Assembly (NCBI GenBank): GCA_012729315.1
Contig: JAAYDI010000194.1
Location: forward strand, 1 to 64,000
Direction of reading: 5' to 3'
DNA: 64,000 bases
Origin: Planctomycetaceae bacterium
Lineage (GTDB): Bacteria; Planctomycetota; Planctomycetia; Pirellulales; Pirellulaceae
Below, one piece after another: positions 13,747-50,421 of this stretch. The stretch's first letter is position 1; each line of letters opens with the position of its first letter. Below the pieces are notes generated by a model, which made no database searches, was not told where the DNA came from, and was given only the letters and a program-made list of their open reading frames with translations. The position numbers and the translations under genes were made by a program.

Positions 13747-13770
13747 CATGACGGTATGACATGACGGTAT
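13734..13770. repeat. 13-bp tandem repeat ATGACATGACGGT spanning a stop codon
   Basis: Nearly three copies of ATGACATGACGGT. The DUF362 reading frame ends in the first copy (ATG-ACG-GTA-TGA). Confidence 0.85.
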
Positions 13771-13834
13771 GATGTAGTGTTTGGTTGACGCTTCCTGCAA
13801 TCATCTGACTGCCTGCGACTCAGGAACTGCTGTG

Positions 13835-28395: not shown

Positions 28396-29448
28396 GTGTT
28401 GAGGGATGATGCCGCAGTGTTGGGGATAGCGGTGATTGGAGCGGGCCGGGCGGGCATGATCCATGCGCGCAATCTGGCGTCCGGGCGAGTACCCGGTGCG
28501 CGGCTGGCCCGGCTGGTCGAACCTCGGGCCGAAACGCGGCAGGCGGCCAGCGCTGAACTGCGTCTGGAACACAGCTCTGCCGACTACCGCGAGGCGCTCG
28601 CTGACCCGGCCGTGGACGCGATCGTGGTGGCCACGCCCAGCGCACTGCACTGTGAAATCGTCGAGGCTGCTGCGCAGGCACGGAAACACATCCTGTGTGA
28701 AAAGCCGATGGCCATGAACGCCGCGGAGTGCGACCGCATGCTCGACGCGGTCGACCGGGCGGAGGTCACGCTGCAGATCGGTTTCATGCGCCGCTACGAC
28801 GCCGGGTTCGTAGCGGCCAGGCGGCGCGTGGAGGCCGGGGAGATCGGCCAGGTGGTCTCCGTGAAGTCGCTCACGCACGGACCCAGCATCCCTCAGCCAT
28901 GGATGTACGACCTGCGGACGAGCAACGGACCGCTGTCGGAAGTGAACAGCCACGACATCGATACAGTGCGCTGGATGAGCGGCAGCGAGTTTGAAGAGGT
29001 GTATGCGATCGCCGGGAACTACCGATCCCCCGCGGCGCGGGAGCCGTTTCCTGACTTTTACGACAATGTGATTCTCACCGCGCGGCTGCGCAACGGGATG
29101 CAGGGCTGTATCTGCGGAGCTCAGGGAGTGATGTACGGCTACGACGCGCGCTGTGAAATCCTGGGGGAAAAAGGTTTGATTACCGTAGGGGGCCTGGCCG
29201 CGGACAGCGTCGTGGCGTACACGGCCGACGGGAGCGCCGGGGCGGTGGTGCGCAGCTGGCAGCAGCTGTTTCTCGACGCGTATCGGGCGGAGGACGAAGA
29301 TTTCGTGCGCTGCGTGCGCGAACAGCGCCCGCCGCGGGCCGGTGGCGAGGATGGCAAGGCCGCCGTGATGGTCGTCAACGCCGGCAACCGCTCGATCGCC
29401 CTGCGGCGTCCGGTGTCTGTGAGCGAGGGTGAGAGCGCGAACGCGTGA
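28396..29448 (+). CDS. Cytoplasmic Gfo/Idh/MocA dehydrogenase (inositol 2-dehydrogenase-like)
   Basis: 350 residues from GTG 28396, with GGAG eight bases upstream and the Rossmann strand starting ten residues later (G-I-A-V-I-G-A-G-R-A-G). No signal peptide, unlike most family members in this window. L-C-E-K-P-M-A is the hallmark motif. G-F-M-R-R-Y-D and E-V-N-S-H-D-I-D-T-V-R-W carry the Lys/Asp/His-region residues used by inositol and sugar dehydrogenases (H-D-x-D). The length matches myo-inositol 2-dehydrogenase IolG. It is the first gene of a ten-gene block, 14 bases before a zinc alcohol dehydrogenase. It probably oxidises a sugar or cyclitol hydroxyl with NAD(P)+. Confidence 0.85.
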   Translation: MLRDDAAVLGIAVIGAGRAGMIHARNLASGRVPGARLARLVEPRAETRQAASAELRLEHSSADYREALADPAVDAIVVATPSALHCEIVEAAAQARKHILCEKPMAMNAAECDRMLDAVDRAEVTLQIGFMRRYDAGFVAARRRVEAGEIGQVVSVKSLTHGPSIPQPWMYDLRTSNGPLSEVNSHDIDTVRWMSGSEFEEVYAIAGNYRSPAAREPFPDFYDNVILTARLRNGMQGCICGAQGVMYGYDARCEILGEKGLITVGGLAADSVVAYTADGSAGAVVRSWQQLFLDAYRAEDEDFVRCVREQRPPRAGGEDGKAAVMVVNAGNRSIALRRPVSVSEGESANA

Positions 29449-29462
29449 GGAGCTTGTGACCC

Positions 29463-30533
29463 ATGGCTGATGCCCAGATGATGCTGGCGGCAACCTACAC
29501 GCAAGGGGGCACGCTCGAGATCGAGGAGATCGCCCGGCCGGTGATCGAGCGCGATGAGATCCTGCTGAGGGTGCGCGCCGCCTCGATCTGCGGAACCGAT
29601 GTGAAGATCATCCGCAACGGCCACCGCAAGCTGCGTGACGGCCAGCGCATTGTGCTGGGCCACGAGTTCGTGGGGGTGATCGAACAGGTGGGGGAGAGCG
29701 TCGCCGGGTATCCCGTGGGGCAACGGGTGGGAGTCGCGCCCAACGCGGGGTGCGGGCGGTGTCCCGCCTGTGTGCGCGGCAAGACGAATTACTGCCCCGC
29801 CTACACCGCATTTGGCATCGACCAGAACGGCGGGCACACAGTGCTGGTGCGGATTGCCAGCCAGTTCGTGACGCAGGGAAATGTCATCCCCTTGCCACCC
29901 GAGGTTTCCGATGCCGAGGCTGCACTGCTGGAGCCTTTTTCGTGTGTCATCAATGGTGTGCGGTCGTCGAACATCGAACTGGGCGATACGGTCGTCATCT
30001 ATGGTGCCGGCCCGATCGGTCTGATGCACGTCCTGCTCTGCCGCCTCTCCGGCGCGGCGAAGCTGATTGCCGTCGACGTCCGGACAGATCGTCTGGAACA
30101 GGCGCGGAACCTGGGGTGCGACCTGGCCGTGGACGCGCGACAGGAGGACGTCGTCGAGCGCGTGCGGTACGAGACGGGGGGGCAGGGTGCCGATGTGGTG
30201 ATCACGGCGTGCCCGGCGGCGGAGGTACAGGCGGAGGCCGTCCGGCTGCTGGCGCCTTTTGGCCGCCTGTGCCTCTTCGGCGGATTGCCCAGAACGGCGG
30301 GCCCCGTGCCGCTCGATACCAACGCGATCCACTACGGCAATCTGCTAGTGACTGGCACGACCGGCGGCGCTGTGGAGGACTATCGCATTGCCATCCGGTT
30401 GGTGGCTGGCAAGCGGGTTGAGTTGACACGCGTTGTTTCACACGTATTCCCACTGGCGGACCTGCGCGGAGCCTACGACGCCGCGCTGGCCGGGACGGAC
30501 GGCAAGATCGTACTTGTGGCGGATGGCACATGA
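29463..30533 (+). CDS. Zinc-dependent alcohol dehydrogenase, polyol/threonine dehydrogenase type
   Basis: 356 residues. Catalytic zinc ligands Cys43 (I-C-G-T-D) and His67-Glu68 (G-H-E-F-V-G); structural zinc cysteines at 97, 100, 103 and 111. Rossmann motif V-I-Y-G-A-G-P-I-G-L-M. These features place it among medium-chain polyol dehydrogenases such as sorbitol, L-threonine or 5-keto-L-gluconate-type enzymes. It would oxidise or reduce a secondary hydroxyl on the pathway substrate with NAD(P). Its stop overlaps the start of the kinase gene by four bases (ATGA), a sign of translational coupling. Confidence 0.9.
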   Translation: MADAQMMLAATYTQGGTLEIEEIARPVIERDEILLRVRAASICGTDVKIIRNGHRKLRDGQRIVLGHEFVGVIEQVGESVAGYPVGQRVGVAPNAGCGRCPACVRGKTNYCPAYTAFGIDQNGGHTVLVRIASQFVTQGNVIPLPPEVSDAEAALLEPFSCVINGVRSSNIELGDTVVIYGAGPIGLMHVLLCRLSGAAKLIAVDVRTDRLEQARNLGCDLAVDARQEDVVERVRYETGGQGADVVITACPAAEVQAEAVRLLAPFGRLCLFGGLPRTAGPVPLDTNAIHYGNLLVTGTTGGAVEDYRIAIRLVAGKRVELTRVVSHVFPLADLRGAYDAALAGTDGKIVLVADGT

Positions 30534-32053
30534 CACCAACGCGACTGCTGGGTATCGACATCGGAACGCAGGGCACCAAGGCGGTGCTGTTCGATCGCCG
30601 TGGCCGTACACTGGCCACCGCCTTCTGCCGGTCGCGTCTGCATCGGCCGGCACCGGGCGTCGTCGAAGAAGACCCGGACGATCAGCTCAAGAGCGTCTGC
30701 CGGTGCATCAAGCTGTGCCTCGCGCAGAGCGGCACCAAGCCGGGCGACCTGGCCGCGCTGGGCATCGACGGACAGATGGCGGGGATCCTGGGAATCGACG
30801 CCGAGGGGCGCCATGTGACCCCCTACGATTCGTGGCTCGACACACGCTGTGCCGACTGTATTGCGCTGATGCAGCAGGGGGCGGGTGAGGAGATCATTCG
30901 CAAGACGGGGGGGCCGGCGAGCTTCAATCACGGACCGAAGATCCTGTGGTGGAAACAGGAGCGGAGTGACACGTTCGAGCGGATTGCCGCGTTCGTGCAA
31001 CCTGGCGGTTATGTAGCGCTGCGTCTGTGCGGTCTGGACGCGACGCACGCCTTCATCGACAAGAGCTACCTGCACTTCAGCGGTTTTGCGGACAATCAGC
31101 GCGGTGTGTGGGACGCCGAGCTCTGCCGCATGTTCGACGTCCCGCTGTCGAAGCTGCCGCGCATCGTGGACTCGCATGCCGTCATTGGCCAGGTGACCAG
31201 GGGCATGGCCAGACGCTGTGGGCTGCCGGCCGGGATCCCGGTGATCGCGGGGTGCGGCGACACGGCTGCTTCGTTTCTGGCCTGCGGAGCGACACGGCCT
31301 GGCGTATGCGTCGATGTGGCGGGCACCGCTTCCGTGTTCGCGGCCACCACGCGGCAGTTCAAGACGGACACCCGCTACGGCACGCTCAGCTGGGGGCGGT
31401 CGGCCACTCCCGGCCTCTGGCATCCGTACGCCTACATTAACGGCGGCGGCATGAACCTGGAATGGTTTGCCCGGGAGTTGCTCGGAGCGGGCGGCCGGAC
31501 GCTGCCCGAACTCGACCGCGCCGCTGCCCGCCTGGAGCCGCAGCTGTCGGATCCCATCTTCGTGCCGCATCTGGGCGGGCGTGTGAATCCCAGTCAGCCT
31601 CAGCTGCGCGGCAGCTGGGCGGGACTGAACTGGGCGCATACGGCGGTGCATCTGTACCGCGCGATGCTGGAGGCCGTGGCGCTCGAGTACTGCGTCTACC
31701 AGGAGGTCCTGCGGGCGGTCAATCCCGAGCTGGCGGTGCGTGAGATCCGCATCACGGGAGGGGGGGAGAAGAGTCGTGCCTGGAGCCAGATCAAAGCCGA
31801 CGCGCTGGGGGTGCCGCTGGTGAACATCAGCCGCCACGAGGGCGCTCCGCTCGGCGCAGCGCTCCTGGCGGGATATGGCGTCGGACTCTTCCCGGACCTC
31901 GCCGCCGCCGCCGCGGCCTGGGTCAAACCGGGCCGGAAAGTCCCGCCGGATCGCACGCGCCGCGCCTACTATGCGGCGCGGCTGGTACGCTACAAAGAAC
32001 TGCTGGAATCGCTCCATCAGTGGGGCGCACAACATACGGAAGCCACGCCATGA
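30530..32053 (+). CDS. FGGY-family carbohydrate kinase
   Basis: 507 residues, the usual xylulokinase length. L-L-G-I-D-I-G-T-Q-G-T-K-A-V is the ATP phosphate-1 motif. G-I-D-G-Q-M-A-G-I and T-P-Y-D-S-W-L-D-T-R contain substrate-contact residues of the xylulokinase branch, and V-I-A-G-C-G-D-T-A-A-S is the phosphate-2 motif. I-R-I-T-G-G-G-E-K-S-R-A-W is the C-terminal signature. It phosphorylates a ketose or oxidised sugar made by neighbouring enzymes. It is coupled by ATGA overlaps at both ends. Confidence 0.92.
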   Translation: MTPTRLLGIDIGTQGTKAVLFDRRGRTLATAFCRSRLHRPAPGVVEEDPDDQLKSVCRCIKLCLAQSGTKPGDLAALGIDGQMAGILGIDAEGRHVTPYDSWLDTRCADCIALMQQGAGEEIIRKTGGPASFNHGPKILWWKQERSDTFERIAAFVQPGGYVALRLCGLDATHAFIDKSYLHFSGFADNQRGVWDAELCRMFDVPLSKLPRIVDSHAVIGQVTRGMARRCGLPAGIPVIAGCGDTAASFLACGATRPGVCVDVAGTASVFAATTRQFKTDTRYGTLSWGRSATPGLWHPYAYINGGGMNLEWFARELLGAGGRTLPELDRAAARLEPQLSDPIFVPHLGGRVNPSQPQLRGSWAGLNWAHTAVHLYRAMLEAVALEYCVYQEVLRAVNPELAVREIRITGGGEKSRAWSQIKADALGVPLVNISRHEGAPLGAALLAGYGVGLFPDLAAAAAAWVKPGRKVPPDRTRRAYYAARLVRYKELLESLHQWGAQHTEATP

Positions 32054-33033
32054 GTGAACCTGTCGCCCACCGGGCACTGACCCCCGATGCTCCCTATCCG
32101 GCAGCCGTCCGGCGGACCATGTATTTCATTGGTGTGACGACGCATCAATCGTCGATTATGAAGGTCTTTCCCCGCTGGGCCGAGTACCTCGGGCTGGGCG
32201 ACGTGGCCATTCAGGGGATGAACTTCCAGTGGCACGACGCGCCGGAGCATTATCGCCGCGCTGTGGAGTTCATCAAACGCGACCCGCTCTCCTGTGGCGC
32301 GCTGGTCACCACACACAAGCTCGACCTGCTGAATGCCTGCCGGGACCAGTTCGACCGGCTCGATACGTTTGCCGAACTGATGGGTGAGGTGAGCAGCATC
32401 TCGAAGGATGGCGATCAGCTGGTGGGTCACGCGAAGGACCCGATTACGAGTGGCTTGGCGCTGGAAGCGTTCCTGCCGGAACGGCACTGGGAACGCACCG
32501 GGGCCGATGCGCTGGTGCTGGGCGCCGGCGGTTCGTCTATCGCCATCACCTGGTACCTGCTGCAAAAGACGCACGGCCGCAATCGGCCCGCGCGGATCGT
32601 GGTGACCAATCGCAGCACGCCGCGGCTCGACGAGCTACGCCGCTTTCACCAGCGGATCGGGGCTGACATCCCGTTGGAGTATCATCACACCCCCACGCCT
32701 GCCGATACCGATGCGATCCTGGCAACGCTCAAGCCGGGCTCGCTGGTGATCAACGCGACAGGACTGGGCAAGGACGCCCCGGGCGCACCGGTCACCGCGC
32801 AGGCACAGTGGCCGGCGCACGGCCTGGTATGGGATTTCAACTACCGCGGAGATCTGCTGTTCCTGGAACTGGCCCGCGCGCAGGCGGCAGAGAAGAACCT
32901 GCAGATCGAAGACGGCTGGATTTACTTCGTGCACGGCTGGACGCGCGTCATCGCGGAGGTGTTTCACATCGACATCCCCACGAGCGGTCCGGTATTCGAC
33001 GAACTGGCGCGGATCGCCGCCGCGGCGCGGTGA
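32050..33033 (+). CDS. Shikimate dehydrogenase (AroE)-family oxidoreductase
   Basis: 327 residues from ATG 32050, overlapping the kinase stop by four bases. F-I-G-V-T-T-H-Q-S-S-I and A-L-V-T-T-H-K (Lys90) followed by A-K-D-P-I-T-S (Asp130) mirror the substrate-binding Lys and Asp of AroE. Spacing is 40 residues versus about 37 in E. coli AroE. L-V-L-G-A-G-G-S-S is the NADP loop. The family usually acts on cyclic hydroxy acids or cyclitols. It is longer than true AroE (about 270), and no other aromatic-pathway gene is near. I infer it reduces or oxidises a ring or chain intermediate of this operon's pathway, not shikimate. Confidence 0.75.
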   Translation: MSEPVAHRALTPDAPYPAAVRRTMYFIGVTTHQSSIMKVFPRWAEYLGLGDVAIQGMNFQWHDAPEHYRRAVEFIKRDPLSCGALVTTHKLDLLNACRDQFDRLDTFAELMGEVSSISKDGDQLVGHAKDPITSGLALEAFLPERHWERTGADALVLGAGGSSIAITWYLLQKTHGRNRPARIVVTNRSTPRLDELRRFHQRIGADIPLEYHHTPTPADTDAILATLKPGSLVINATGLGKDAPGAPVTAQAQWPAHGLVWDFNYRGDLLFLELARAQAAEKNLQIEDGWIYFVHGWTRVIAEVFHIDIPTSGPVFDELARIAAAAR

Positions 33034-33060
33034 CGGCGCGGTGACACAGACTCCTGCGAG

Positions 33061-33085
33061 CCGGCCGATCGGCACATCCGGCCGG
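33061..33085 (+). other. Intra-operon hairpin between AroE-like and cupin genes
   Basis: CCGGCCGAT (33061-33069) pairs with ATCCGGCCGG (33076-33085) with one bulged base and a 6-base loop. It sits in a 91-base gap inside the operon. No T-run follows, so mRNA processing or stability is more likely than termination. Confidence 0.45.
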
Positions 33086-33124
33086 GTCGACTCGAACAAC
33101 TTGACCAGACGAGAAAGGCACAGC

Positions 33125-33694
33125 ATGTCGCCTCGAACTTCGTTGATTGAACCCTTCAGTGTTCAACTTGATCTCGCCGCTGGAGTGATGCTCGATCCCC
33201 ACGCACAGATCGTGCGCCGCGCCTCGGACATGCGCGGCTACTACGCTGACGAGCAGGCTCTGGAACAGCTCATCACGGCGCACGATGATCCGATCCACTA
33301 CGAGACGTTTGAATCGCCGGTGCCGGAAGAGTATGGCCAGGTCAAGTTCTGCATCAGCCGGCTGTACCCGGGCAAGGTGGGTGATGAATACTTCATGACG
33401 AAGGGGCATTACCACGCGGTGGTCGAGACGGGCGAAGCGTACCTGGGCCTGCGCGGGCAGGGACTCATGCTGATGAAAACTGCCGAGGGGGCCTGCCAGT
33501 GGGAAGCGTTCGCGCCGGGCAAACTGATCTACGTGCCTCCTTACTGGGCGCACCGCTCGGTCAACACTGGTGACGAGCCGCTCATTTCGCTCTGCCTGTA
33601 CCCGGGCGACGCCGGGCACAGCTACGGCGACATCAAGTCAGAGGGGTTTCCCCGACGCGTGTTCCAGCGCAACGGACAAGTGGTGGTGAGCTGA
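33125..33694 (+). CDS. Cupin-type glucose-6-phosphate isomerase
   Basis: 189 residues from ATG 33125, with GAAAGG upstream. The metal-binding cupin has His95, His97, Glu104 and His143 (T-K-G-H-Y-H...T-G-E-A-Y-L...W-A-H-R-S-V). The spacing is identical to the metal ligands of the Pyrococcus enzyme (88, 90, 97, 136). L-R-G-Q-G-L-M-L is the conserved strand. The enzyme interconverts aldose and ketose phosphates in the cytoplasm. In this operon it could act on the kinase product or connect the pathway to fructose 6-phosphate. This archaeal-type isomerase is unusual in bacteria. Confidence 0.85.
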   Translation: MSPRTSLIEPFSVQLDLAAGVMLDPHAQIVRRASDMRGYYADEQALEQLITAHDDPIHYETFESPVPEEYGQVKFCISRLYPGKVGDEYFMTKGHYHAVVETGEAYLGLRGQGLMLMKTAEGACQWEAFAPGKLIYVPPYWAHRSVNTGDEPLISLCLYPGDAGHSYGDIKSEGFPRRVFQRNGQVVVS

Positions 33695-33728
33695 AGGGTA
33701 CCGGCGGGGAACTCCGGGTAAAACTGGC

Positions 33729-34643
33729 ATGGACATTGTGCCTGACGAGCGCTGTGACCTGGAGACGCTGCTGCACGCGCCGGAGGATCCACCGCAGCCG
33801 GGGATCAGCTGGCTGGGGCAGGCGGGATTCCTGATCCGCTGGCGCGCGCTGCGGCTGGCCATCGATCCGTATCTGTCCGACTACCTGGCCACGAAGTATC
33901 GCGGCACGCAGTTCCCCCACACGCGGCTGGCACCGCCGCCGGTGGCCCCGGAGCGGTTGGCACCGCTGCAGGTGGTGCTCTGTACGCATGCGCACAGCGA
34001 CCACATGGATCCCGAGACGCTGCCGCGCATCGCGGCCGCCAATCCGCAGTGCCGGTTCGTCGTGCCGCGTGCGGAGCGGGCGACCGCGCTGGCGCGGGGC
34101 GTGCCCGCGCCGCGGCTGGTGCCCGTCAACGCGGGCGATCATGTGCCGCTGGCGCCCGATCTGACGCTGCAGGTGCTGCCCGCCGCGCACGAGCAGCTGC
34201 GGACGGACGCGGAGGGGAACCACCACTGCCTGGGCTACGTGTTGCATCTGGTGTTGGACCAAGGGACCGCAGCCCTGTACCACTCGGGCGACTGTGTGCC
34301 CTTTGCCGGGCTGGATACGGCACTGGCGGCCTGCGGGGCGCGCGTCGCGCTGTTGCCGGTCAACGGGCGCGACGAACACCGCAGGGCGCACGGGATTCCG
34401 GGGAACTTCACGTTCGATGAGGCGACGGCGCTCTGTCTGCGCTGTAGAATCTCAGCCATGATGGCGTGTCATTTCGGAATGTTCGACTTCAACACGGTGG
34501 ACGAATCGTGGCTGGATCGGCAGATAGCTCGAGTGCCAGCGCTGCTGCAGTGCCTGCGCCCGCAGTTGGGCCGCGTGTGTTGGCTGCGTTCGCGCCACAC
34601 GGTCGCTCCAGCCGCGACACCTGATCAGGGGACTCTGTCATGA
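33729..34643 (+). CDS. Metallo-beta-lactamase-fold hydrolase, UlaG-like
   Basis: 304 residues. S-W-L-G-Q-A-G-F-L-I-R is the opening of the UlaG branch, and T-H-A-H-S-D-H-M-D (His87, His89, Asp91, His92) is the binuclear metal motif. Y-H-S-G-D-C-V-P-F and C-H-F-G-M-F supply later metal ligands. UlaG opens the lactone ring of L-ascorbate 6-phosphate. Relatives hydrolyse other lactones or ring ketones. Placed between an isomerase and a dehydrogenase, it is a candidate ring-opening step. Its stop overlaps the next start (ATGA). Confidence 0.85.
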   Translation: MDIVPDERCDLETLLHAPEDPPQPGISWLGQAGFLIRWRALRLAIDPYLSDYLATKYRGTQFPHTRLAPPPVAPERLAPLQVVLCTHAHSDHMDPETLPRIAAANPQCRFVVPRAERATALARGVPAPRLVPVNAGDHVPLAPDLTLQVLPAAHEQLRTDAEGNHHCLGYVLHLVLDQGTAALYHSGDCVPFAGLDTALAACGARVALLPVNGRDEHRRAHGIPGNFTFDEATALCLRCRISAMMACHFGMFDFNTVDESWLDRQIARVPALLQCLRPQLGRVCWLRSRHTVAPAATPDQGTLS

Positions 34644-35959
34644 AAGCACGACTCGTACCACTTTATCTCGACCCGGGCCGGGACGACGAATTCGACCGGC
34701 AGTTGGCAGCGATTCATGAGTTGCTGGGTGAGTACGCGGAGTTCCTCGCGCCGGTTGCGCTGGGGCAACCGCTGCCGGAGGCGGAGGGGGTGATTTTCCC
34801 GCAGGTGCTGGGGGAGGCGTACCGGCAGGTGCCGGCGTTTCAGGCCATCCGCCTCCCGATCCTGCTGATCACGTCCGAGTTCGGCACGCTCTCGATGTGG
34901 GACTGGGAGATTGCCGAGTATCTGCGTGCGCATGGCGTGGCGACGATCGGGCCGTATACGCTGCCGCAGGCCCAGATCGTCTGCCGGGCGCTGGCGGTGC
35001 AGCGGGAACTCCGCGAGACGACCTTTCTGGTCTACCAGGACGATCCCGGGGAGGGGCACCAGGCGAGCATTTTCAAGCGTTTCTACTGGTGGGAAGACGA
35101 GTGCTCGCAGCGGCTGCACGACAAGTTCGGCGTGAAGGTGGTGAAGCGGAGTTTCCGCGAGTTGGGGGCTGCCGCGCAGGCGATCTCCGACGCGGACGCC
35201 GACCAGGCCTGGGCCGAGCGGCAGCTGCCGACCGATGGGCTGTCGCCCCGCGCGATCCGCAGCGCTGTGAAAATGTACCTGGCGTTGCGGCGCGACCTTG
35301 ATGCGGATCCGTCGATTCGTGCGGTTGGCATCAACTGTCTGAACGAATCCCGCTTCTCCGATACCACACCGTGCCTGGCCTGGAACCTGCTGTACCAGGA
35401 GCGGCAGCTGATCTGGGGCTGCGAAGCCGACACGATGTCGATGCTGACGAAGTACCTCCTGAACAAGTCCCTCGGGGCGCCGGTCATGATGACGAACCTG
35501 TACCCGTTCCTCCTGGGGCAGGCGGCGCTGAAACACGAGCGGATTGCGAGTTTCCCGGAGGTGGACGCGGATCCGGAACACCATGTGCTGGTCGCGCACT
35601 GCGGTTATATGGGGGTCATCCCGCACACTTTCTGCACCGACTGGACCCTGCGCAAGAAGGTGCTCGCGATTGTCGACGACAATGCGTCGGCGATCGACGC
35701 CCGGTTGCCCGTCGGCGACGTGACGCTGGCCAAACTCCACCCGGCGTTGGACAAGCTGACCGTTGCCCAGGGGCAGCTCACCGGTTACGCGCAGTTCACC
35801 GGCTCCGACTGCTTGAACGGCGGCATCATCAAGGTCCGTGACGGCCACGCCTTCTTGAACGCCCTGGCATCCCACCACTATCTGGTGCTGGTCGGGCACC
35901 ATCTCGTGGATATCCAGTTTCTGGGCCGCGTGTTCGGTCTGAGCATTGAGGAGATATAA
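34640..35959 (+). CDS. L-fucose/L-arabinose isomerase-like protein
   Basis: 439 residues, start overlapping the previous stop. The N-terminal half (V-P-L-Y-L-D-P-G...G-V-I-F-P-Q-V-L-G-E-A) and central L-I-T-S-E-F-G-T-L-S-M-W-D-W-E-I fit the alpha/beta substrate-binding domain of the fucose/arabinose isomerase fold. N-C-L-N-E-S-R...T-P-C-L-A-W-N-L-L-Y and the later G-C-E-A-D-T-M-S-M-L-T are also typical of this superfamily, in which an acidic residue of this kind binds metal. Isomerase activity on an oxidised or deoxy sugar is likely but unproven. It lies two bases before the epimerase gene. Confidence 0.75.
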   Translation: MKARLVPLYLDPGRDDEFDRQLAAIHELLGEYAEFLAPVALGQPLPEAEGVIFPQVLGEAYRQVPAFQAIRLPILLITSEFGTLSMWDWEIAEYLRAHGVATIGPYTLPQAQIVCRALAVQRELRETTFLVYQDDPGEGHQASIFKRFYWWEDECSQRLHDKFGVKVVKRSFRELGAAAQAISDADADQAWAERQLPTDGLSPRAIRSAVKMYLALRRDLDADPSIRAVGINCLNESRFSDTTPCLAWNLLYQERQLIWGCEADTMSMLTKYLLNKSLGAPVMMTNLYPFLLGQAALKHERIASFPEVDADPEHHVLVAHCGYMGVIPHTFCTDWTLRKKVLAIVDDNASAIDARLPVGDVTLAKLHPALDKLTVAQGQLTGYAQFTGSDCLNGGIIKVRDGHAFLNALASHHYLVLVGHHLVDIQFLGRVFGLSIEEI

Positions 35960-35961
35960 AC

Positions 35962-36819
35962 ATGAAGGTCGGCATCGACAGTTACTGCTACCACCGTTAC
36001 TTCGGCGAGATCTATCCTGAGCAGACCGATCCGGGCGTGCGTTGGACGTTCCAGGACTTCGTGCGGCGGGCGGTCGAGCTGGGCGTGGCGGGCGTGTCCC
36101 TGGAGTCGTGTTTCTTCGACAGTCTGGAGCCGGGTTACCTGTCCGAGATCAAGGCGGTGCTGGACGAGAACTCCCTGGAACGTGTGCTGGCCTGGGGGCA
36201 TCCCGACGGACTGGAGGCGGGACGCAGCGAGAAGGCCTGGCGGGAGATGAACTCGCTGATACCGAAGGCGCGGTTCATGGGTGCTGACATCATGCGGATC
36301 GTCGCCTCCTCGCTCATGTTTCGCAACGAGCCGCACGCACCGCAGATCGAAGCCATTGTGAAGATGCTCAAGACCAGCGTCCAGATCGCCGCCGACAACG
36401 GCGTCATCCTGGCACTGGAAAACCACATCGACTATACATCGGCCGAGATCCAGGAGATTCTCGAACGCGTCGGGTCCGATGCATTGAAGGTGAACTTCGA
36501 CACGGGCAACACGCTGCGTATGATGGAGGATCCGGTGGCGGCGGCGCGGCGGCTGGGTCCCTTCACCGTGGCCACGCACACGAAAGACCTGGATGCCTGC
36601 CGCCACGTGCGCCCTGAGGAGTGGTACTTCTTCTCGTCGGTCCCCGTCGGCACCGGCCTGATCGACATGCGCGGCGTCGTGCTGGCCCTGAAGGAATGCG
36701 GCTACCAGGGCGTGCTGGCGGTGGAGTCGGATCATCACAAGGACAACCAGGACGAGGACCAGCTTGTGGCCGCGAGTGTCGCGTACCTCAAACAACTGCT
36801 GGCTGAACTGGAAGGGTAA
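35962..36819 (+). CDS. Sugar phosphate isomerase/epimerase (TIM-barrel, AP-endonuclease-2 fold)
   Basis: 285 residues. Likely metal ligands are Glu153 (L-A-L-E-N-H), Asp180 (N-F-D-T-G-N), His206 (V-A-T-H-T-K-D) and Glu255 (L-A-V-E-S-D-H), the order found in xylose-isomerase-like epimerases and inosose dehydratases. The N-terminus K-V-G-I-D-S-Y-C-Y is typical. It would epimerise or dehydrate a keto-sugar. Only two bases follow the isomerase-like gene, so it is certainly co-transcribed. Confidence 0.88.
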   Translation: MKVGIDSYCYHRYFGEIYPEQTDPGVRWTFQDFVRRAVELGVAGVSLESCFFDSLEPGYLSEIKAVLDENSLERVLAWGHPDGLEAGRSEKAWREMNSLIPKARFMGADIMRIVASSLMFRNEPHAPQIEAIVKMLKTSVQIAADNGVILALENHIDYTSAEIQEILERVGSDALKVNFDTGNTLRMMEDPVAAARRLGPFTVATHTKDLDACRHVRPEEWYFFSSVPVGTGLIDMRGVVLALKECGYQGVLAVESDHHKDNQDEDQLVAASVAYLKQLLAELEG

Positions 36820-36845
36820 TGCGCACAGGGTCATACGCGCCAGCG

Positions 36846-36872
36846 GCCGGTGCCGGTGCAGCAGGCACCGGC
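36846..36872 (+). other. Intra-operon hairpin, perfect 9-bp stem
   Basis: GCCGGTGCC (36846-36854) pairs with GGCACCGGC (36864-36872) around a 9-base loop, in a 91-base gap before a Gfo/Idh/MocA gene. No T-run follows. Confidence 0.5.
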
Positions 36873-36910
36873 AGGGGGCGGCGCACAGGCATCTACCGGA
36901 GGAACAAGCC

Positions 36911-38074
36911 GTGAGGAAACTCAACGTCGCCCTGATCGGTTACAAGTTCATGGGAAAGGCCCACAGCTACGCGCTGATGGCCACGCCGTTCTTCTTCAAG
37001 ACGGGGATCGAGCCGGTCCGCAAGGTCCTGGTGGGACGCCACGCCGGGCCGCTCCAGCAGGCGGCGCAGGATTTCGGCTGGGAGGAATGGGCCACCGACT
37101 GGCGGGAAGTCGTGCAGCGTCCGGACATCGACGTCGTCGACATCGCCACGCCCCCCAGCACGCACGCGGAGATCGCGATGGCCGCGGCCGCGGCGGGCAA
37201 ACACATCTTCTGCGAGAAGCCATTCACCGTCACGGTGGAAGAAGCGGAGCGGACGCTGGAGGCTGTGCAGCGCGCCGGGGTCTTCCACATGCTCGGGTTC
37301 AACTACCGCCGCGTCCCGGCGATCGGACTGGCCAGGCAACTGATCGCCTCCGGACGCCTGGGCCAGATCTATCATTTCCGCGCGGCGTATCTCCAGGACT
37401 GGATCATGGACCCCCAGTTCCCACGCATCTGGAAACTGAATCGAGCGCTGGCCGGCTCCGGGCCGCATCATGAACTGAACAGCCACATCGTCGACCTGGC
37501 GCTGTACCTGGTGGGCAAGATCAGCCGCGTCATCGGCATGGAGGAGACGTTCATCAAACAGCGGCCGGCAGAGGCGGAACCCGATCAGCTGTCGACGATG
37601 TTGACGGCCCAGGCCAGCGCCTCGAAGATGGTGGACGTGGACGTGGACGACACGACCGCGTTCCTGGCTCGCTTCGCCGATGGTGCAGTGGGCACGTTCG
37701 AATCGACCCGTTTTGCGGCCGGACGCCGCAATCATAACCGGATCGAAGTGAACGGCTCCAAAGGCTCCGTGTACTTCGATCTGGAAAAGATGAATCTACT
37801 CGAGTACTACAATGTAGACGATCCGGCGGATGTGCCCGGGTTCCGGACCATCCAGGTCAATGAGAGCTGCCACCCGTATATTGACCATTGGTGGCCGCCC
37901 GGGCACGGGATCGGATACCAGAACACGTTCGTCAACCAGTTCGCGGACTTCTTCCAGGCCATTGTGCGGGGGACGCCGCCGGAACCGGGCTTCGAAGTGG
38001 GGTTGGAGAACCAGAAGGTGCTGGAGGCCGTCACCCGGTCGATAGCGGACGAGCGGTGGGTTTCCGTGTCGTAG
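36911..38074 (+). CDS. Cytoplasmic Gfo/Idh/MocA dehydrogenase, larger type
   Basis: 387 residues from GTG 36911, with GGAGGA seven bases upstream. L-N-V-A-L-I-G-Y-K-F-M-G-K-A-H is the Rossmann loop, F-C-E-K-P-F the hallmark motif, and L-G-F-N-Y-R-R-V-P with E-L-N-S-H-I-V-D-L-A the catalytic region. No export signal. It has 37 more residues than the first dehydrogenase of the operon and shares few exact motifs with it, so the two probably act on different intermediates. The C-terminal P-P-G-H-G-I-G-Y-Q-N-T-F is characteristic of a subgroup of these enzymes. Confidence 0.87.
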   Translation: MRKLNVALIGYKFMGKAHSYALMATPFFFKTGIEPVRKVLVGRHAGPLQQAAQDFGWEEWATDWREVVQRPDIDVVDIATPPSTHAEIAMAAAAAGKHIFCEKPFTVTVEEAERTLEAVQRAGVFHMLGFNYRRVPAIGLARQLIASGRLGQIYHFRAAYLQDWIMDPQFPRIWKLNRALAGSGPHHELNSHIVDLALYLVGKISRVIGMEETFIKQRPAEAEPDQLSTMLTAQASASKMVDVDVDDTTAFLARFADGAVGTFESTRFAAGRRNHNRIEVNGSKGSVYFDLEKMNLLEYYNVDDPADVPGFRTIQVNESCHPYIDHWWPPGHGIGYQNTFVNQFADFFQAIVRGTPPEPGFEVGLENQKVLEAVTRSIADERWVSVS

Positions 38075-38106
38075 AGGTTGGAATTGTACCAGGGAGAAAA
38101 CAGTAT

Positions 38107-39102
38107 ATGGCGCAGCGCTACCGCGTCGTGATTACTGATCTGCTCGACGACGATCTGGCACCGGAACGCGAGGTGCTGGGCAAGCTGGCGGATGTCGAGG
38201 CGCTGCAGGCGGGCAGCGAGGGGGACGTGCAGGGGCGCGTGGAACAGGCCGATTGCCTCATCGTGTATCACCTGATCCAGCTGACGAAGACGACGATCAG
38301 CCACCTGGAACGCTGCCGGGTCATCGTGCGAGGCGGTGTGGGGTATGACAACATCGATCACGCGCTGGCTCGCCAACGTGGGATTCCGGTCTGCAACGTG
38401 CCCGACTATGGCACGGAAGAGGTCGCCGATACGGCGCTCGGCATGCTGCTGGCACTCACGCGCGGCATCCACCGGGCGAACTCGCGGCTGCGGGACAACC
38501 CGGATGACTGGTCGTACGCGGTGTCGATGCCCCTGCTGCGACTGCGCGGACGCGTGCTCGGCATCGTCGGCCTGGGCCGTATCGGCACCGCCATGGCCCT
38601 GCGCGGCAAGGCGCTGGGTATGGATGTCGTGTTCTACGATCCCTACAAGCCCGATGGCTATGACAAGGCGCTCGGCATCCGCCGCGCGGATACACTCCCC
38701 GAACTGCTCGGTCAGGCGCACGCAGTCAGCCTGCACTGCCCGCTGACCGATGAGACCCGCTACATGATCAATGCCGAGGCCATGGCGCTCATGCCGGCCG
38801 GCGCGTATCTGATCAACACCGCGCGCGGAGGCGTGCTCGACTGTTCGGCGGTGCCCGAAGCTCTGGCGACCGGTCAGCTGGCGGGGGTCGGCATCGACGT
38901 GCTGGAAAACGAGCCGCCGCTGCCCGGCGATCCGCTGGTCGCCGCCTGGCGCGATCCGCAGCATGCGGCACATCACCGGCTGATCCTGAACCCGCACCTG
39001 GCCTGGTATTGCCAGGATGGCCGGGTGGAAATGCGCCGGAAGGCGGCCGATACCTGCCGCCGCGCGCTGCTCGGCATGCCGCTGCGCAACGTCATCAATT
39101 GA
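38107..39102 (+). CDS. D-isomer-specific 2-hydroxyacid dehydrogenase
   Basis: 331 residues from ATG 38107 with a GGGAG site upstream. V-R-G-G-V-G-Y-D-N-I-D carries the substrate Arg. L-G-I-V-G-L-G-R-I-G-T-A is the NAD loop. N-T-A-R-G-G-V-L-D and I-D-V-L-E-N-E-P hold the catalytic Arg/Glu, and N-P-H-L-A-W the catalytic His. The motif set resembles CtBP/phosphoglycerate-dehydrogenase relatives. It interconverts a 2-keto and 2-hydroxy acid and would be a late step after ring opening. Last gene of the operon. Confidence 0.9.
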   Translation: MAQRYRVVITDLLDDDLAPEREVLGKLADVEALQAGSEGDVQGRVEQADCLIVYHLIQLTKTTISHLERCRVIVRGGVGYDNIDHALARQRGIPVCNVPDYGTEEVADTALGMLLALTRGIHRANSRLRDNPDDWSYAVSMPLLRLRGRVLGIVGLGRIGTAMALRGKALGMDVVFYDPYKPDGYDKALGIRRADTLPELLGQAHAVSLHCPLTDETRYMINAEAMALMPAGAYLINTARGGVLDCSAVPEALATGQLAGVGIDVLENEPPLPGDPLVAAWRDPQHAAHHRLILNPHLAWYCQDGRVEMRRKAADTCRRALLGMPLRNVIN

Positions 39103-39565
39103 ACGGCGCCACCGTTCGTGGTCCCGATACCAATAGCGCCAGGCGCAGTCGTGGTGCCGCGCACGTGAGAACACGAAGCAGACGGCGGCACGCAGGACGG
39201 CGCCGAACATGGGCCCCACGACCCGTGTCCCTTCACCAGCCCGGTAGTACCGCTCAGATAGCACGGATGAGCTGTCACTGAGTCGACTCCAGCGTTGCAG
39301 CTCAAGACGTCAGTTCGCGTGACGCGAATAGGTCACGAAACGTGACTTCTATCGACACACGTTTGCCGGATCGGACCGGCACGCCGCCGCTCGGCGCGGC
39401 CCACACACGATTGTACCGTCGTGAATTCTGAATTCGTGAATTCTGGATTCGTGAATTCTGAACTCTGGGTCCTGGATCCCTCGGTCTGGACGGCGGGCCG
39501 AGCAGACCTGACAATGGGCAGCGAGTGTTTATTTGTCCAACTGTATCACCAGACATGAGAGTACG
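39103..39565. other. Intergenic region with 15-bp tandem repeats
   Basis: About 460 bases with no supported gene. GTGACGCGAATAGGTCACG (about 39318) and CACGAAACGTGAC follow each other and can pair partly. The 15-bp repeat is listed separately. Confidence 0.5.
39421..39465. repeat. Three 15-bp tandem units, GTGAATTCTGAATTC type
   Basis: Units: GTGAATTCTGAATTC (39421-39435), GTGAATTCTGGATTC (39436-39450), GTGAATTCTGAACTC (39451-39465). It lies about 100 bases before the GH89 gene. Confidence 0.9.
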
Positions 39566-42187
39566 ATGAAGACGCGCCGTTTACGAACGATCTTTTTGCT
39601 GTGTGTTGCCGGGCTGCTGTGCGGCTGGTCGCGGGTCCAGTCTGCTGAGGCGGTCGCACCGGAGCAGGCTGCCCGGGGTGTGCTGCAACGGGTCATTCCC
39701 GAGGTAGCCGACGCGTTTGACCTGGAGGTAATCCCGTCCGCCGCTGGCCGCGACGTATTTGAAATCGAGAGTGTCGACGGCCGGCTCGTCGTGCGGGGCT
39801 CGAGCGGTGTCGCCATTGCGTCCGGTGTGAACTGGTATTTGAAGTATGTGTGCCATTGCCATCTGTCGTTCAATGGCGACCAGCTCGATATTCCTCGGCC
39901 GTTGCCCGGCGTGGCGGAGAAGATCCGCTGCGTGAGTCCGTATCAGTACCGTTACTTTTTCAATTTCTGTGCCTTCAGCTACACACTGGCCTGGTGGGAT
40001 TGGGATCAGTGGCAGCGCATGATCGACTGGATGGCGCTGCACGGCATCAACATGCCGCTTTCAGTGACCGGTCAGGAGGCGGTCTGGCAGAACGTGTATC
40101 GAAGCATGGGACTGACCGACGCGCAACTGGCTGATTTTTTCGTCGGGCCGGGTTTTCTGCCATTCGGCTGGATGGGATGCCTGGACGGTTGGGGCGGGCC
40201 GCTGCCGCAGAGCTGGATAGACAGCCATGTGCGGCTCCAGCAGCAGATTGTGGCGCGCGAGCGCGAGCTGGGGATGACACCGGTACTGCAAGGTTTTACC
40301 GGGCACGTACCGGCTGCCCTGCGCGAGCGGTTTCCGGCGGCGAAGTTCCAGCAGCTGCCCAGTTGGTGCTACTTTCCTGGCACGCAATTCGTCGATCCCA
40401 GCGATCCGCTGTTCGAGCAGATCGGCAAGGCATTCATAGAGGAACAGACGCGCCTCTACGGCACCGACCATTTGTATGCCTCGGATACCTTCATCGAGAT
40501 GTCGCCGCCGAGCAATGATCCCGAGTTCCTGGCCGACATGAGTCGCGCCGTGCTGGGTGCCATGCAGGCGGGTGATCCACAAGCCATCTGGGTCATGCAA
40601 GGCTGGCTGTTTTTCCACAACCCGGACTTCTGGCAACCGCCGCAGGCCCAGGCGCTGTTTGACGCCGTCCCGAACGAGCGGATGGTTGTGCTCGATCTCT
40701 TCTGCGAGGCCAAATCGGTCTGGGATCAGACCGAAGCCTTTCACGGAAAACCTTGGGTGTGGTGCATCATCCACAGCTTCGGTGCCCGCGTGGGCATGTA
40801 TGGCGGCTTGCCCCAGATCCTCAACAATCTGAACACAGCGCTCACCAGTGACGAACGAGGTGACCTGCGGGGTATCGGGGTGATCATGGAAGGGTTCGGC
40901 TACAACCCGCCGGTCTACGATCTGATGACTGACATGATCTGGCGCGACGAAGTACCCGAGCTTGACGAGTGGCTGGCGGGTTTTGTGCTGCGCCGTTACG
41001 GACAACGCGTGGAGCGAGCCGATCAGGCCTGGGAGTTGTTGCGGCGCACTGTGTATCAACTGCCCGGCTACTCCGGCTCGGTCATCTTCGACCGCCCCTC
41101 CTTGCATATAGGCCAATCGATTGCATACGACACAATGCAGTTGGCGAAAGCAGGTGACCTGCTGCTGGCGAGCGCGGGAGAATTGGGATCGGTCGACACG
41201 TACCAATTCGACGCCGTGCACCTGACCCGGCAGGTCCTGGGCGATCTGGCCGGTAGCCTGTACCTGGATGTGGTCGACGCGTATACGGCCCGGGACCAGG
41301 CCGCGCTGCAAAAGGCAGGTCAGCGGTATCTGGAGCTGATGCGCGACATCGATCGGCTGCTTGGTACCCGCCGCGAATTCCTGCTGGGAGCGTGGCTGCA
41401 CGATGCCACACGCTGGGGAACCACCGACGAGGAACGCCGGTTGCTGGAATGGAACGCCCGCAATCTGATCACGCTGTGGGGGCCGCGCGACAGCGTCCTG
41501 CACGAGTACTCGTATCGCCAATGGTCCGGCTTGATCCACGGATTCTACCTCAGACGCTGGGAGCTGTTCCTCGAGAGGCTCGCGCAGTCGCTCGAGTCGG
41601 ACACGGCGTTCGATGCCGCCCAGTTCGAACAGGAGATCCGCGCGTGGGAAGAAGACTGGACGCACGGCACGGAGCCGTATCCCACCGAACCGGTTGGAGA
41701 CCCCGTGCTCGTCAGCCAGGAAATCTGGGCCAAGTACCGCGAGTCGATTTGCCAGTCGGTCGGGCCGAATCAGGTTAGCCTCTCGACCGGCAAGCCTGTT
41801 TCCTGCTCCAGCGCCCTGCCGCAATATCCCGCCACGTTTGCCAATGATGGCCGCACGCGCAACACCAACGTCTATTGGGCCACCGACGTGGAGATCGACA
41901 GCGAGCCATGGTGGCAAGTCGATCTGGAAACGCCGACCTCGATCAGCCGTGTGGTCGTGGTGCCGTACTATGACGGACAGCGCTACTACGGCTTCACGGT
42001 CCAGACGTCCCTGGATGGGGAGACCTGGAAGACGGTCGCCGATCGGAGGGACAACCAGCTGCCGTCCACGAGGGCGGGGTACGAGTGCCGATTTGAGCCG
42101 CACGCGGCCCGTTTTGTCCGCGTCACGATGCCTCACAACTCGGCCAATACCGGCCGCCATCTGGTGGAGGTCATGGTGTACGAATAA
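39566..42187 (+). CDS. Secreted alpha-N-acetylglucosaminidase (GH89) with C-terminal discoidin domain
   Basis: 873 residues from ATG 39566 with a signal peptide (T-I-F-L-L-C-V-A-G-L-L-C-G). The NAGLU-like body contains R-Y-F-F-N-F-C-A-F-S-Y-T-L-A-W-W-D-W and A-L-H-G-I-N-M-P-L. Predicted catalytic residues are Glu311 (S-D-T-F-I-E-M-S-P-P) and Glu442 (G-V-I-M-E-G-F-G-Y-N-P), close to human Glu316 and Glu446. The last about 130 residues (W-A-T-D-V-E-I-D...W-W-Q-V-D-L-E-T) are an F5/8 type C (discoidin) carbohydrate-binding domain. It releases terminal alpha-linked GlcNAc from glycans outside the cell and may feed the preceding catabolic genes, although it has its own promoter region. Confidence 0.92.
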   Translation: MKTRRLRTIFLLCVAGLLCGWSRVQSAEAVAPEQAARGVLQRVIPEVADAFDLEVIPSAAGRDVFEIESVDGRLVVRGSSGVAIASGVNWYLKYVCHCHLSFNGDQLDIPRPLPGVAEKIRCVSPYQYRYFFNFCAFSYTLAWWDWDQWQRMIDWMALHGINMPLSVTGQEAVWQNVYRSMGLTDAQLADFFVGPGFLPFGWMGCLDGWGGPLPQSWIDSHVRLQQQIVARERELGMTPVLQGFTGHVPAALRERFPAAKFQQLPSWCYFPGTQFVDPSDPLFEQIGKAFIEEQTRLYGTDHLYASDTFIEMSPPSNDPEFLADMSRAVLGAMQAGDPQAIWVMQGWLFFHNPDFWQPPQAQALFDAVPNERMVVLDLFCEAKSVWDQTEAFHGKPWVWCIIHSFGARVGMYGGLPQILNNLNTALTSDERGDLRGIGVIMEGFGYNPPVYDLMTDMIWRDEVPELDEWLAGFVLRRYGQRVERADQAWELLRRTVYQLPGYSGSVIFDRPSLHIGQSIAYDTMQLAKAGDLLLASAGELGSVDTYQFDAVHLTRQVLGDLAGSLYLDVVDAYTARDQAALQKAGQRYLELMRDIDRLLGTRREFLLGAWLHDATRWGTTDEERRLLEWNARNLITLWGPRDSVLHEYSYRQWSGLIHGFYLRRWELFLERLAQSLESDTAFDAAQFEQEIRAWEEDWTHGTEPYPTEPVGDPVLVSQEIWAKYRESICQSVGPNQVSLSTGKPVSCSSALPQYPATFANDGRTRNTNVYWATDVEIDSEPWWQVDLETPTSISRVVVVPYYDGQRYYGFTVQTSLDGETWKTVADRRDNQLPSTRAGYECRFEPHAARFVRVTMPHNSANTGRHLVEVMVYE

Positions 42188-49186: not shown

Positions 49187-50164
49187 CTACTTTTCCTCCA
49201 CCACCCAGATGTTGCGGAAGACGACCGGGTTGCCGTGACCCTGCAGGAACAGCGGGGCCGGGTCCGGGCCTTCCGCAAGTCGTCCCGGGGTGGCGTCGGG
49301 CAGCTCGATGTTGTCCAGCACCTTGACGCCGTTGTGCACGAGGGTGACGCGGGCGTTTTGCACCTTCTGGCCGTTCGCGTACCGCGCTGCCTGGAACTCG
49401 ATGTCGTACGTCTGCCAGGTCAACGGCGGATAGCACATGTTGACGCTGGGCTTGGCGATCGAGTAGATCCCGCCGCATTCGTTGTTCTCGCCTTCGAGCC
49501 CAAATGAGTCGAGCACCTGGATTTCATAGCGACTCTGGACGTACACGCCGCTGTTGCCGCGCGCCTGGCCGCGCGCAAGTGGTTTGAAGGGGGGCCGGAA
49601 CTCGATATGCAGCTTGTGGTCGCCAAAGACCGCCTTACTGCTGCACTCGTGCGCGAGCCACTTTTCGGGTGTCAACACAGCGCCGTCAAAGTGCTCGACC
49701 GAACTGCCGTCAAACAGGACGACGGCGCCTTGCGGGGGCTTGGCCCCCAGCGTCGGGCTCTTGCGCTCCACCTTCTTCAGCTTGCCCAGCGGCCTGGTGC
49801 CCGCCGCCGATACGGTGAGCACCCCGTCCCGGATCTCGGCCGACCATTGGTCTGCCTGGAATCGCGTGACGTCTCCAGTGGTACTGCCTTCGGCCATCTC
49901 GCGATGATCGTCGCGTTTCCAGCCGTCTCCGGGCAGGCCGCCTTTGTAGCCCACCAGGGCGAATTTCCCTTCGCCAAGGGCGATCACCTGCGCACCCCAG
50001 GGGCCGCGCTGAAAGTTGACGTCCAACTCGCCCAGATACTCCCCCTGGACAACATAGTCCGGACCGGCCTCCTCCGGTGTCAGGTAGGTTGGCCCTTCAT
50101 CGTCGGCCAGCAACGGCCACGTACAGACAGAGAGAGCAATCCAGGCTAATGTGCGCGTGAACAT
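49187..50164 (-). CDS. DUF1080 protein (3-keto-disaccharide hydrolase-like), exported
   Basis: 325 residues from ATG 50164, with CGGAGG upstream. Signal peptide L-A-W-I-A-L-S-V-C-T-W-P-L-L-A. A planctomycete-specific N-terminal domain (to about residue 140) precedes a concanavalin-like DUF1080 domain: V-V-L-F-D-G-S-S, L-H-I-E-F-R-P-P, R-G-N-S-G-V-Y-V-Q-S-R-Y-E-I-Q-V-L-D-S-F and the C-terminal P-L-F-L-Q-G-H-G-N-P-V-V-F-R-N-I-W-V. Members have been linked to 3-keto-glycoside hydrolysis, which pairs naturally with Gfo/Idh/MocA enzymes that make 3-keto sugars. It follows the deacetylase gene on the same strand. Confidence 0.88.
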   Translation of the reverse strand: MFTRTLAWIALSVCTWPLLADDEGPTYLTPEEAGPDYVVQGEYLGELDVNFQRGPWGAQVIALGEGKFALVGYKGGLPGDGWKRDDHREMAEGSTTGDVTRFQADQWSAEIRDGVLTVSAAGTRPLGKLKKVERKSPTLGAKPPQGAVVLFDGSSVEHFDGAVLTPEKWLAHECSSKAVFGDHKLHIEFRPPFKPLARGQARGNSGVYVQSRYEIQVLDSFGLEGENNECGGIYSIAKPSVNMCYPPLTWQTYDIEFQAARYANGQKVQNARVTLVHNGVKVLDNIELPDATPGRLAEGPDPAPLFLQGHGNPVVFRNIWVVEEK

Positions 50165-50326
50165 TGTGCGAACCTCCGGTTGTGAAACATCAACTGCAAC
50201 TGCGAAAACACGAGGTACAACCAAGCTCCTGCGAGCTCCTATTCTTGCACGGGACGACGCCGGGATGCAATCGGGCAGCACACTGCCAGCAGGAGCGGCG
50301 CGCGACGCCCGTGCTCCTGACTGCCG

Positions 50327-50348
50327 ACGGACGCCTCTTCGAGGCGTG
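50327..50348. repeat. Second copy of the ACGCCTC..GAGGCGT hairpin repeat
   Basis: ACGCCTC (50331-50337) and GAGGCGT (50341-50347) with a TTC loop. The core GACGGACGCCTCT and its flank match the copy at 25291-25313 except for one base in the loop. Confidence 0.65.
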
Positions 50349-50421
50349 GTTGCCAGCCGAATAAGTCGATCGCCACACAGCACTCACGCGTCCGGTGCGA
50401 CTCGTCTGGTGTGACGGGGGA

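Follow-up and report, generated by a model that had tools for sequence, protein, structure and literature searches.

The gene block considered here, at positions 28396-39102 of a 64,000-nucleotide stretch of DNA from a Planctomycetaceae bacterium (the window), has several described systems as its closest counterparts. The oxidative inositol pathway of Thermotoga maritima, which reportedly consists of IolG, IolM, IolN and IolO, resembles it in the families of g1, g2, g6 and possibly g8 (the ten genes of the block are numbered g1 to g10 in their order). IolO is also treated in PMC12632266. The Entner-Doudoroff pathway has the logic of kinase, phosphoglucose isomerase, dehydrogenase, phospho-lactonase and 2-keto-3-deoxy-6-phosphogluconate (KDPG)-type aldolase that is proposed below, the aldolase being found in relatives of the block. 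The levoglucosan pathway (LgdA/LgdB1/LgdB2/LgdC) shares with it a pair formed by a Gfo/Idh dehydrogenase and a TIM barrel (g9 and g8). The E. coli ycjQRS genes, which according to PMC11543891 encode two dehydrogenases and a TIM-barrel epimerase, are likened to the block by composition only (Gfo/Idh, zinc dehydrogenase, TIM barrel) and not by sequence; in contrast to that system, the window operon contains no phosphorylases. Finally, a putative shikimate dehydrogenase of Tatumella is described in PMC7954740 as a 5-ketofructose reductase, which is comparable to g4 in its fold and in the proposed sugar substrate. Set against these systems, the presented analysis indicates that the block belongs to a real, conserved catabolic unit, weakens the inositol reading given in a preliminary description of this DNA, and leaves a fair chance that the core of the unit is an undescribed oxidation route. 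A search of the open literature with specific word combinations found no published description of the gene cluster, so print may hold one.

The block comprises ten intact open reading frames on the plus strand, none of them broken, with successive gaps of 14, -4, -4, 91, 34, -4, 2, 91 and 32 bases. The preliminary description had reported ten same-strand genes with four junctions of 0-2 bases or an ATGA overlap, and the list of gaps (ATGA overlaps at three junctions, a gap of 2 bases at one) confirms this observation. The starts of g1 (GTG 28396) and g9 (GTG 36911) are each one choice among several in-frame starts. Pfam places the products in the Gfo/Idh/MocA family (two proteins), zinc dehydrogenases, FGGY kinases, cupins (PF06560), the metallo-beta-lactamase fold (UlaG-like), TIM barrels (PF01261) and 2-hydroxyacid dehydrogenases; for g4 and g7, Pfam gives nothing at 1e-3. 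The family names proposed earlier agree with the Pfam and NCBIfam matches, and for the AroE-like protein (g4) and the fucose-isomerase-like protein (g7) they are backed by predicted folds. The terminator scan (2 sites, 4.6 expected) placed no terminator between the operon genes, and neither it nor the sigma-70 scan (4 sites, 1.6 expected) gave anything usable.

A recurrent core around the AroE-like gene

The same genes recur in other genomes as a core which consists of an FGGY kinase (g3, 30530..32053, plus strand; PF00370/PF02782; ATGA overlap with g2), a shikimate-dehydrogenase-fold, AroE-like oxidoreductase (g4, 32050..33033, plus strand; ATGA overlap with g3), a cupin-type phosphoglucose isomerase (g5, 33125..33694, plus strand), a hydrolase (g6, 33729..34643, plus strand) and a 2-hydroxyacid dehydrogenase (g10 in the window, 38107..39102, plus strand; PF02826/PF00389; of a subfamily unlike the core one of other loci). 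A KDPG aldolase and a sugar ABC transporter often accompany the core, which was found in Planctomycetes, Chloroflexi, Actinobacteria, Clostridia and others. For the locus counts, 26 loci flanked by at least 5 kb on either side were retrieved through the AroE-like gene alone, without bias towards g7 and with repeats removed; seven loci were left out as repeats or near-identical congeners (L046, L066, L092, L101, L102, L157 and L184). The cupin isomerase is present in 21 of these 26 loci, a hydrolase of either kind in 20, the FGGY kinase in 19, a 2-hydroxyacid dehydrogenase in 18 and ABC transporter genes in 17; an IolG-like label was found in 12, a KDPG-type aldolase in 9, a zinc dehydrogenase in 7 and g7 in 4. 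Twelve loci with both the AroE-like and the cupin gene (5 kb on both sides) carry neither the IolG-like nor the zinc dehydrogenase; all twelve have a hydrolase (2 UlaG-type, 10 phosphotriesterase-type), eleven the kinase, eleven the 2-hydroxyacid dehydrogenase, six the aldolase and none g7. Because the core recurs without the front-end genes, the window operon is regarded as this core joined to a front end of g1, g2, g7, g8 and g9.

In 17 of the 18 genomes that carry the AroE-like gene, the cupin gene occurs once, no more than 8 kb away from it; the 18th, an incomplete genome, has no cupin gene. A full-length cupin gene was found in 9/9 AroE-positive Planctomycetota (on the same contig in 7/9) versus 5/383 negatives above 60 bits (Fisher 3.6e-15; 2.6e-11 if all 21 AroE-negative genomes with any cupin match are counted), where 15 Planctomycetota genomes with partial matches of 19-27 bits and one with 40.7 bits were not counted as full-length. 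One of the five cupin-positive negatives (G100) has a UlaG-type hydrolase, an aldolase, a 2-hydroxyacid dehydrogenase and the cupin in a row at a contig end, evidently a copy of this cluster truncated by the contig border. Of 14 well-known genomes taken as controls, only two, both archaeal, contain the cupin family. The gene is absent from five AroE-like loci with 5 kb flanks (L153, L154, L158, L160 and L161; 35-49% identity to the query). L153, L154 and L158 hold parallel clusters, in which a ROK kinase, a SIS isomerase, a DeoC aldolase and a Gfo/Idh gene stand with AroE-like and phosphotriesterase-like genes, so that this cluster type repeats the core logic with unrelated parts. Gene order and the accessory set vary among the loci, as they would in a loose gathering of unrelated sugar genes that share no pathway; the linkage of the two genes in 17/18 genomes, and their joint presence in every Planctomycetota positive, make such an explanation hardly credible.

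All ten families occur in the order of the window in L016 (its other copy is L101) and in another order in L050 and L051, a count that accepts any 2-hydroxyacid dehydrogenase, and this recurrence argues that the operon is more than a product of chance. Nine families are present in L018, L064 and L103, without a recognised hydrolase, and in L183 and L184, with a phosphotriesterase-family gene in the place of the UlaG-like one. The core together with g7 is found in Cryobacterium glaciale (L060), and a Vallitalea set combines AroE-like, cupin, phosphotriesterase-type and KDPG-type aldolase genes. The preliminary description had itself proposed that its operon be judged by synteny in other genomes; such synteny is present, and conservation in other planctomycetes and beyond supports the idea of a catabolic operon whose substrate is probably a cyclitol or an unusual sugar. 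A full-length homologue of g7 was found in 5/60 relatives (own genome counted), and a scan of genome contigs gave 56 g7 loci, whose titles name Planctomycetes, Chloroflexi, Verrucomicrobia, Acidobacteria, Actinobacteria, Clostridia, Vallitalea, Bacteroidales, spirochaetes and Trueperaceae. The AroE-like gene lies in the same locus in 32/56 of them, many of the contigs being short. In each group sampled it is rare (9/392 Planctomycetota, 17/400 Chloroflexota-type, 14/297 of one actinobacterial order and 9/291 of one Clostridia-type class), and its patchy presence across many phyla suggests horizontal spread. Since most records are metagenome bins and many loci run up to the end of a contig, neither the absences nor the phylum labels can be taken as firm.

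The block had also been described as lacking a transporter and a regulator. This holds locally, as Pfam found no sugar transporter or transcription-regulator family in the 20 flanking frames scanned, which are a part of those present and of which 6 had no match at all. For the transporter it does not hold elsewhere, since ABC transporter genes lie within 9 kb in 19/52 AroE+cupin loci. Beside the core cluster of one planctomycete (L095, 10660-12498), a PEP-hydrolase-like domain is fused to a sigma-54 activator, a possible regulator. In L179 the core cluster is flanked by a split transketolase (6826-8625) and a transaldolase/FSA gene (13579-14253), and transaldolase-type genes are also found near L176 and L178.

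The hydrolase and the AroE-fold enzyme

The UlaG-like metallo-hydrolase g6 (PF12706; ATGA overlap with g7) carries the motif HxHxDH 87-92, present in 5/5 homologues. UlaG is ascorbate-6-phosphate lactonase; against the UlaG model NF008688, g6 scores 31.1 bits and the cut-off of 306 is not reached. Of the 52 AroE+cupin loci, 9 have the UlaG-type hydrolase, 27 the phosphotriesterase-type, none both and 16 neither. The phosphotriesterase-type protein keeps H21, H23, K146, H179, H207 and D265 in 33/33 sequences, and its nearest NCBIfam model is phospho-furanose lactonase (158.5 bits, cut-off 630). The hydrolase is counted as a core member because it is kept in 12/12 loci without g1/g2-type dehydrogenases, and it is probably a phospho-sugar lactonase. 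Two unrelated folds swap beside the kinase, both with relatives that hydrolyse phospho-lactones; therefore, the step is read as phospho-lactone opening, and the hydrolase would act on a phospho-lactone.

The preliminary description had assigned the UlaG-like protein to ring opening after the two front dehydrogenases, as in an oxidative inositol route of the Thermotoga type. The persistence of the hydrolase in the twelve well-flanked loci that lack these dehydrogenases, and its substitution elsewhere by a phosphotriesterase-family protein, set back inositol ring opening by g6. The two dehydrogenases themselves are a Gfo/Idh/MocA protein (g1, 28396..29448, plus strand, start uncertain) and a zinc-dependent alcohol dehydrogenase (g2, 29463..30533, plus strand; PF08240 and PF00107). 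The best PDB sequence match of g1, 3ezy (183.5 bits), which is taken to be T. maritima TM0414, is in favour of the inositol route, and so are the 189.5 bits of g2 on the IolM model NF041097, the presence of a UlaG-like gene and a TIM barrel in one operon, and the KDPG aldolase of relatives, which would suit a hexuronate ending. However, the curated cut-offs are reached neither by g1 on the IolG model TIGR04380 (275.4 vs 355 bits) nor by g2 on the IolM model (cut-off 450), and g2 scores equally high on the L-threonine dehydrogenase model (197.6 of 458 bits). Moreover, the AroE-like protein, the cupin isomerase, the FGGY kinase and g7 have no known place in that route, and the hydrolase here travels with other partners than in T. 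maritima. An oxidative inositol route is therefore considered very unlikely.

The predicted structure of g4 (predicted local distance difference test, pLDDT, 94.6) has a shikimate dehydrogenase fold (best Z 27.4, root-mean-square deviation, rmsd, 3.2, 274 aligned), and the AroE equivalog model TIGR00507 gives 44.6 bits, under its cut-off of 200.2. HK89-90 (Lys90) and Asp130 are retained in 71/71 homologues; the Lys and Asp are presumably the AroE catalytic pair, the HK part being matched through an alignment with 1nvt. Core-only clusters keep just two dehydrogenases, the AroE-like and the 2-hydroxyacid enzyme, of which the first alone could plausibly form a lactone, so that this step is likely to be its own by elimination. 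The two had earlier been suspected of forming an unrecognised branch, which is supported here.

The other core proteins are similarly intact. The cupin isomerase g5 reaches 110.6 bits on PF06560 (threshold 20.7) and 199.4 bits to the Pyrococcus-type phosphoglucose isomerase 1j3p, and the metal ligands His95, His97, Glu104 and His143 are kept in 42/42. The kinase g3 scores 271.3 bits on the xylulokinase XylB model TIGR01312, where the cut-off of 380.25 is not reached by it or by the L176 kinase (308.4) but is reached by three kinases of other clusters (382.9, 394.6 and 400.5). The roles of FGGY kinase and hexose-6-phosphate isomerase proposed earlier are supported. Lys133 of the KDPG-type aldolase is kept in 21/21 and R240 and H297 of the 2-hydroxyacid dehydrogenases in 45/45; all catalytic residues examined in the core families are retained, with E269 of the last family in 43/45.

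The structural neighbours of g4 include the 5-ketofructose reductase entries 7cok/7col (Z 25.5 and 24.7, against 27.4 for the best neighbour), which, with the Tatumella precedent (PMC7954740), would fit a pathway of another kind. In it, the AroE-fold protein would reduce a keto-sugar, the FGGY kinase would phosphorylate the resulting ketose and the cupin enzyme, which keeps all its metal ligands and stands at 199 bits to the Pyrococcus enzyme, would interconvert fructose 6-phosphate and glucose 6-phosphate, the hydrolase serving a side or salvage step. The lactonase-type hydrolase, the 2-hydroxyacid dehydrogenase and the frequent KDPG aldolase would then be unexplained as core members, and so would the swap of two unrelated hydrolases. 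In addition, g4 has 19% identity to 7cok_B in the structural alignment and a cluster context unlike that of the reductase. Keto-sugar reduction with glycolytic entry is therefore unlikely.

Front end and proposed route

The front-end protein g7 (34640..35959, plus strand) is predicted to have an L-arabinose/L-fucose isomerase fold (pLDDT 92.8; Foldseek 2.4e-19; Z 26.5 to 2ajt, rmsd 3.9, 401 aligned). No Pfam or NCBIfam model matches it at 1e-3, and its profile found no relative among PDB sequences, so that only the fold comparison gave one. Other genes of the L-fucose-isomerase family replace g7 beside the FGGY kinase or core in L186 (11167-12582), L152 (11570-12397) and, weakly, L176 (4011-5645). 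Downstream follow the TIM-barrel isomerase/epimerase g8 (35962..36819, plus strand; PF01261 108.8 bits; IolE model TIGR04379 38.9 bits, cut-off 290 not reached) and, paired with it, the Gfo/Idh/MocA dehydrogenase g9 (36911..38074, plus strand). The latter resembles levoglucosan dehydrogenase (NF052479 402.7 bits; PDB 4h3v 388.3 and 6a3f 330.1 bits).

These scores raise the possibility that the g7-g8-g9 module does the main job, a levoglucosan-like glycoside or anhydrosugar being oxidised at C3, passed to the TIM barrel and isomerised, with the rest of the operon feeding the sugar onward. The chemistry would be as described in PMC7676230 and PMC10066097. L031, L043, L053 and L058 hold the three genes together, no AroE-like gene being visible there, and three of these loci have an ABC transporter, though L053 is a 4-kb contig. 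Homologues of g7, g8 and g9 are also present in Bythopirellula polymerisocia (L021), where no AroE-like gene was seen either. Against this, g9 stays below the levoglucosan cut-off of 650, for which a levoglucosan pathway was rejected for it, the levoglucosan route has no counterpart of g7, the third member here being the isomerase-fold protein, and the core does without g7-g9 in 11 of the 12 core-only loci (L176 has a frame 29% identical to g9). As the main function of the operon, the module is quite unlikely.

The most probable reading, held at somewhat less than even confidence, is a phosphorylative, Entner-Doudoroff-like oxidation core (kinase, isomerase, AroE-fold oxidation, lactone opening) fed by a substrate-specific front end. 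The FGGY kinase would convert a ketose to a ketose phosphate, the cupin isomerase would interconvert the 6-phosphates of ketose and aldose, oxidation of the sugar phosphate by the AroE-fold dehydrogenase would most likely yield a phospho-lactone, and the UlaG-type hydrolase (elsewhere the phosphotriesterase-type) would open this to a phospho-aldonate. The 2-hydroxyacid dehydrogenase might oxidise C2 or reduce a keto acid released later; it mostly adjoins the aldolase, which suggests consecutive steps, and in many relatives the KDPG-type aldolase would split the product into glyceraldehyde 3-phosphate and a three-carbon keto acid. In the window, g9, as a 3-dehydrogenase-like enzyme, and g8 may act on a glycoside or anhydrosugar, g7 may turn an aldose into a ketose, and g1 and g2 may swap stereochemistry via a keto intermediate. 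More tentative is the wider version, a multi-phylum route in which an AroE-fold sugar-phosphate dehydrogenase, interchangeable UlaG- and phosphotriesterase-type phospho-lactonases, C2 oxidation and a KDPG-type aldolase form the trunk, and rare-sugar front ends plug in, including the new arabinose/fucose-isomerase-fold family. The scheme departs from the Entner-Doudoroff pathway in that the AroE-fold enzyme stands for glucose-6-phosphate dehydrogenase and the UlaG/phosphotriesterase-type hydrolase for Pgl, with an extra 2-hydroxyacid dehydrogenase and an aldolase that lies outside the window operon.

Several observations weigh against the phosphorylative oxidation route. No conserved dehydratase was noticed in the cluster, no search for Edd having been made; the exception is a galactonate-dehydratase-type gene near the L182 cluster. 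The aldolase might accept a non-deoxy 2-keto acid, whose aldol cleavage would be unusual, or else an enzyme encoded outside the cluster might perform the dehydration. 5-Ketofructose reductase, the best AroE-fold sugar precedent, acts on a secondary ketone and not on C1. With identities of 25-33%, the labels Gfo/Idh and FGGY are valid at the superfamily level only, and the single hydrolase scored on the phospho-furanose lactonase model is far under the cut-off. Contig ends truncate some of the loci without a hydrolase; L018, L060, L064, L170 and L182, however, have at least 5 kb on both sides. The window's own version adds further difficulties. Its operon has no aldolase, and the single PF01081 gene of the genome lies on another contig (C40) with no core neighbours. 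Furthermore, g10 is not of the core type of 2-hydroxyacid dehydrogenase, being 69% identical to a protein of L018, 58% to one of L093, which carries both kinds, and 29-39% to 42 other 2-hydroxyacid dehydrogenases. Since the aldolase is missing and g10 belongs to another subfamily, the last part of the pathway seems to have been exchanged in the Pirellulaceae form. An ordinary glucose-6-phosphate dehydrogenase is encoded in the host and in 4 relatives as well; therefore, the product is presumably not 6-phosphogluconate from plain glucose.

Surroundings of the operon and significance

Just downstream of the operon, at 39566-42187, lies a gene for a GH89-type alpha-N-acetylglucosaminidase with an F5/8 type C domain, followed at 42281-44683 by a GHL10/DUF4015 glycosyl-hydrolase-like protein. 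The GH89 gene was dropped as a part of the unit, as 0/71 loci have a homologue of it or of the next gene. Upstream of it, a perfect palindrome, GTCACGAAACGTGAC, occupies 39332-39346; it is the sole match in the window at up to 1 mismatch (0.54 expected) and may be due to chance. A short tandem repeat with units TCGTGAATTCTGAAT lies at 39419-39467, between the operon and the GH89 gene. A 3-keto-disaccharide hydrolase domain protein is encoded on the minus strand at 49187-50383 and three more Gfo/Idh genes lie at 8962, 15632 and 17081 of the window, which hints at 3-keto-sugar chemistry nearby. No Rfam matches were found in the window, and the tRNA scan found none.

Even without a mechanism, the cupin phosphoglucose isomerase of the bacteria sampled is so strictly linked to the AroE-like gene that the association can serve as an annotation rule. 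Should the core prove to be a phospho-lactone route, central sugar oxidation would come to include an AroE-fold enzyme and two exchangeable lactonases. An arabinose/fucose-isomerase-fold family invisible to Pfam and NCBIfam would then gain a function, and a catabolic module in poorly cultured planctomycetes and Chloroflexi would become testable.

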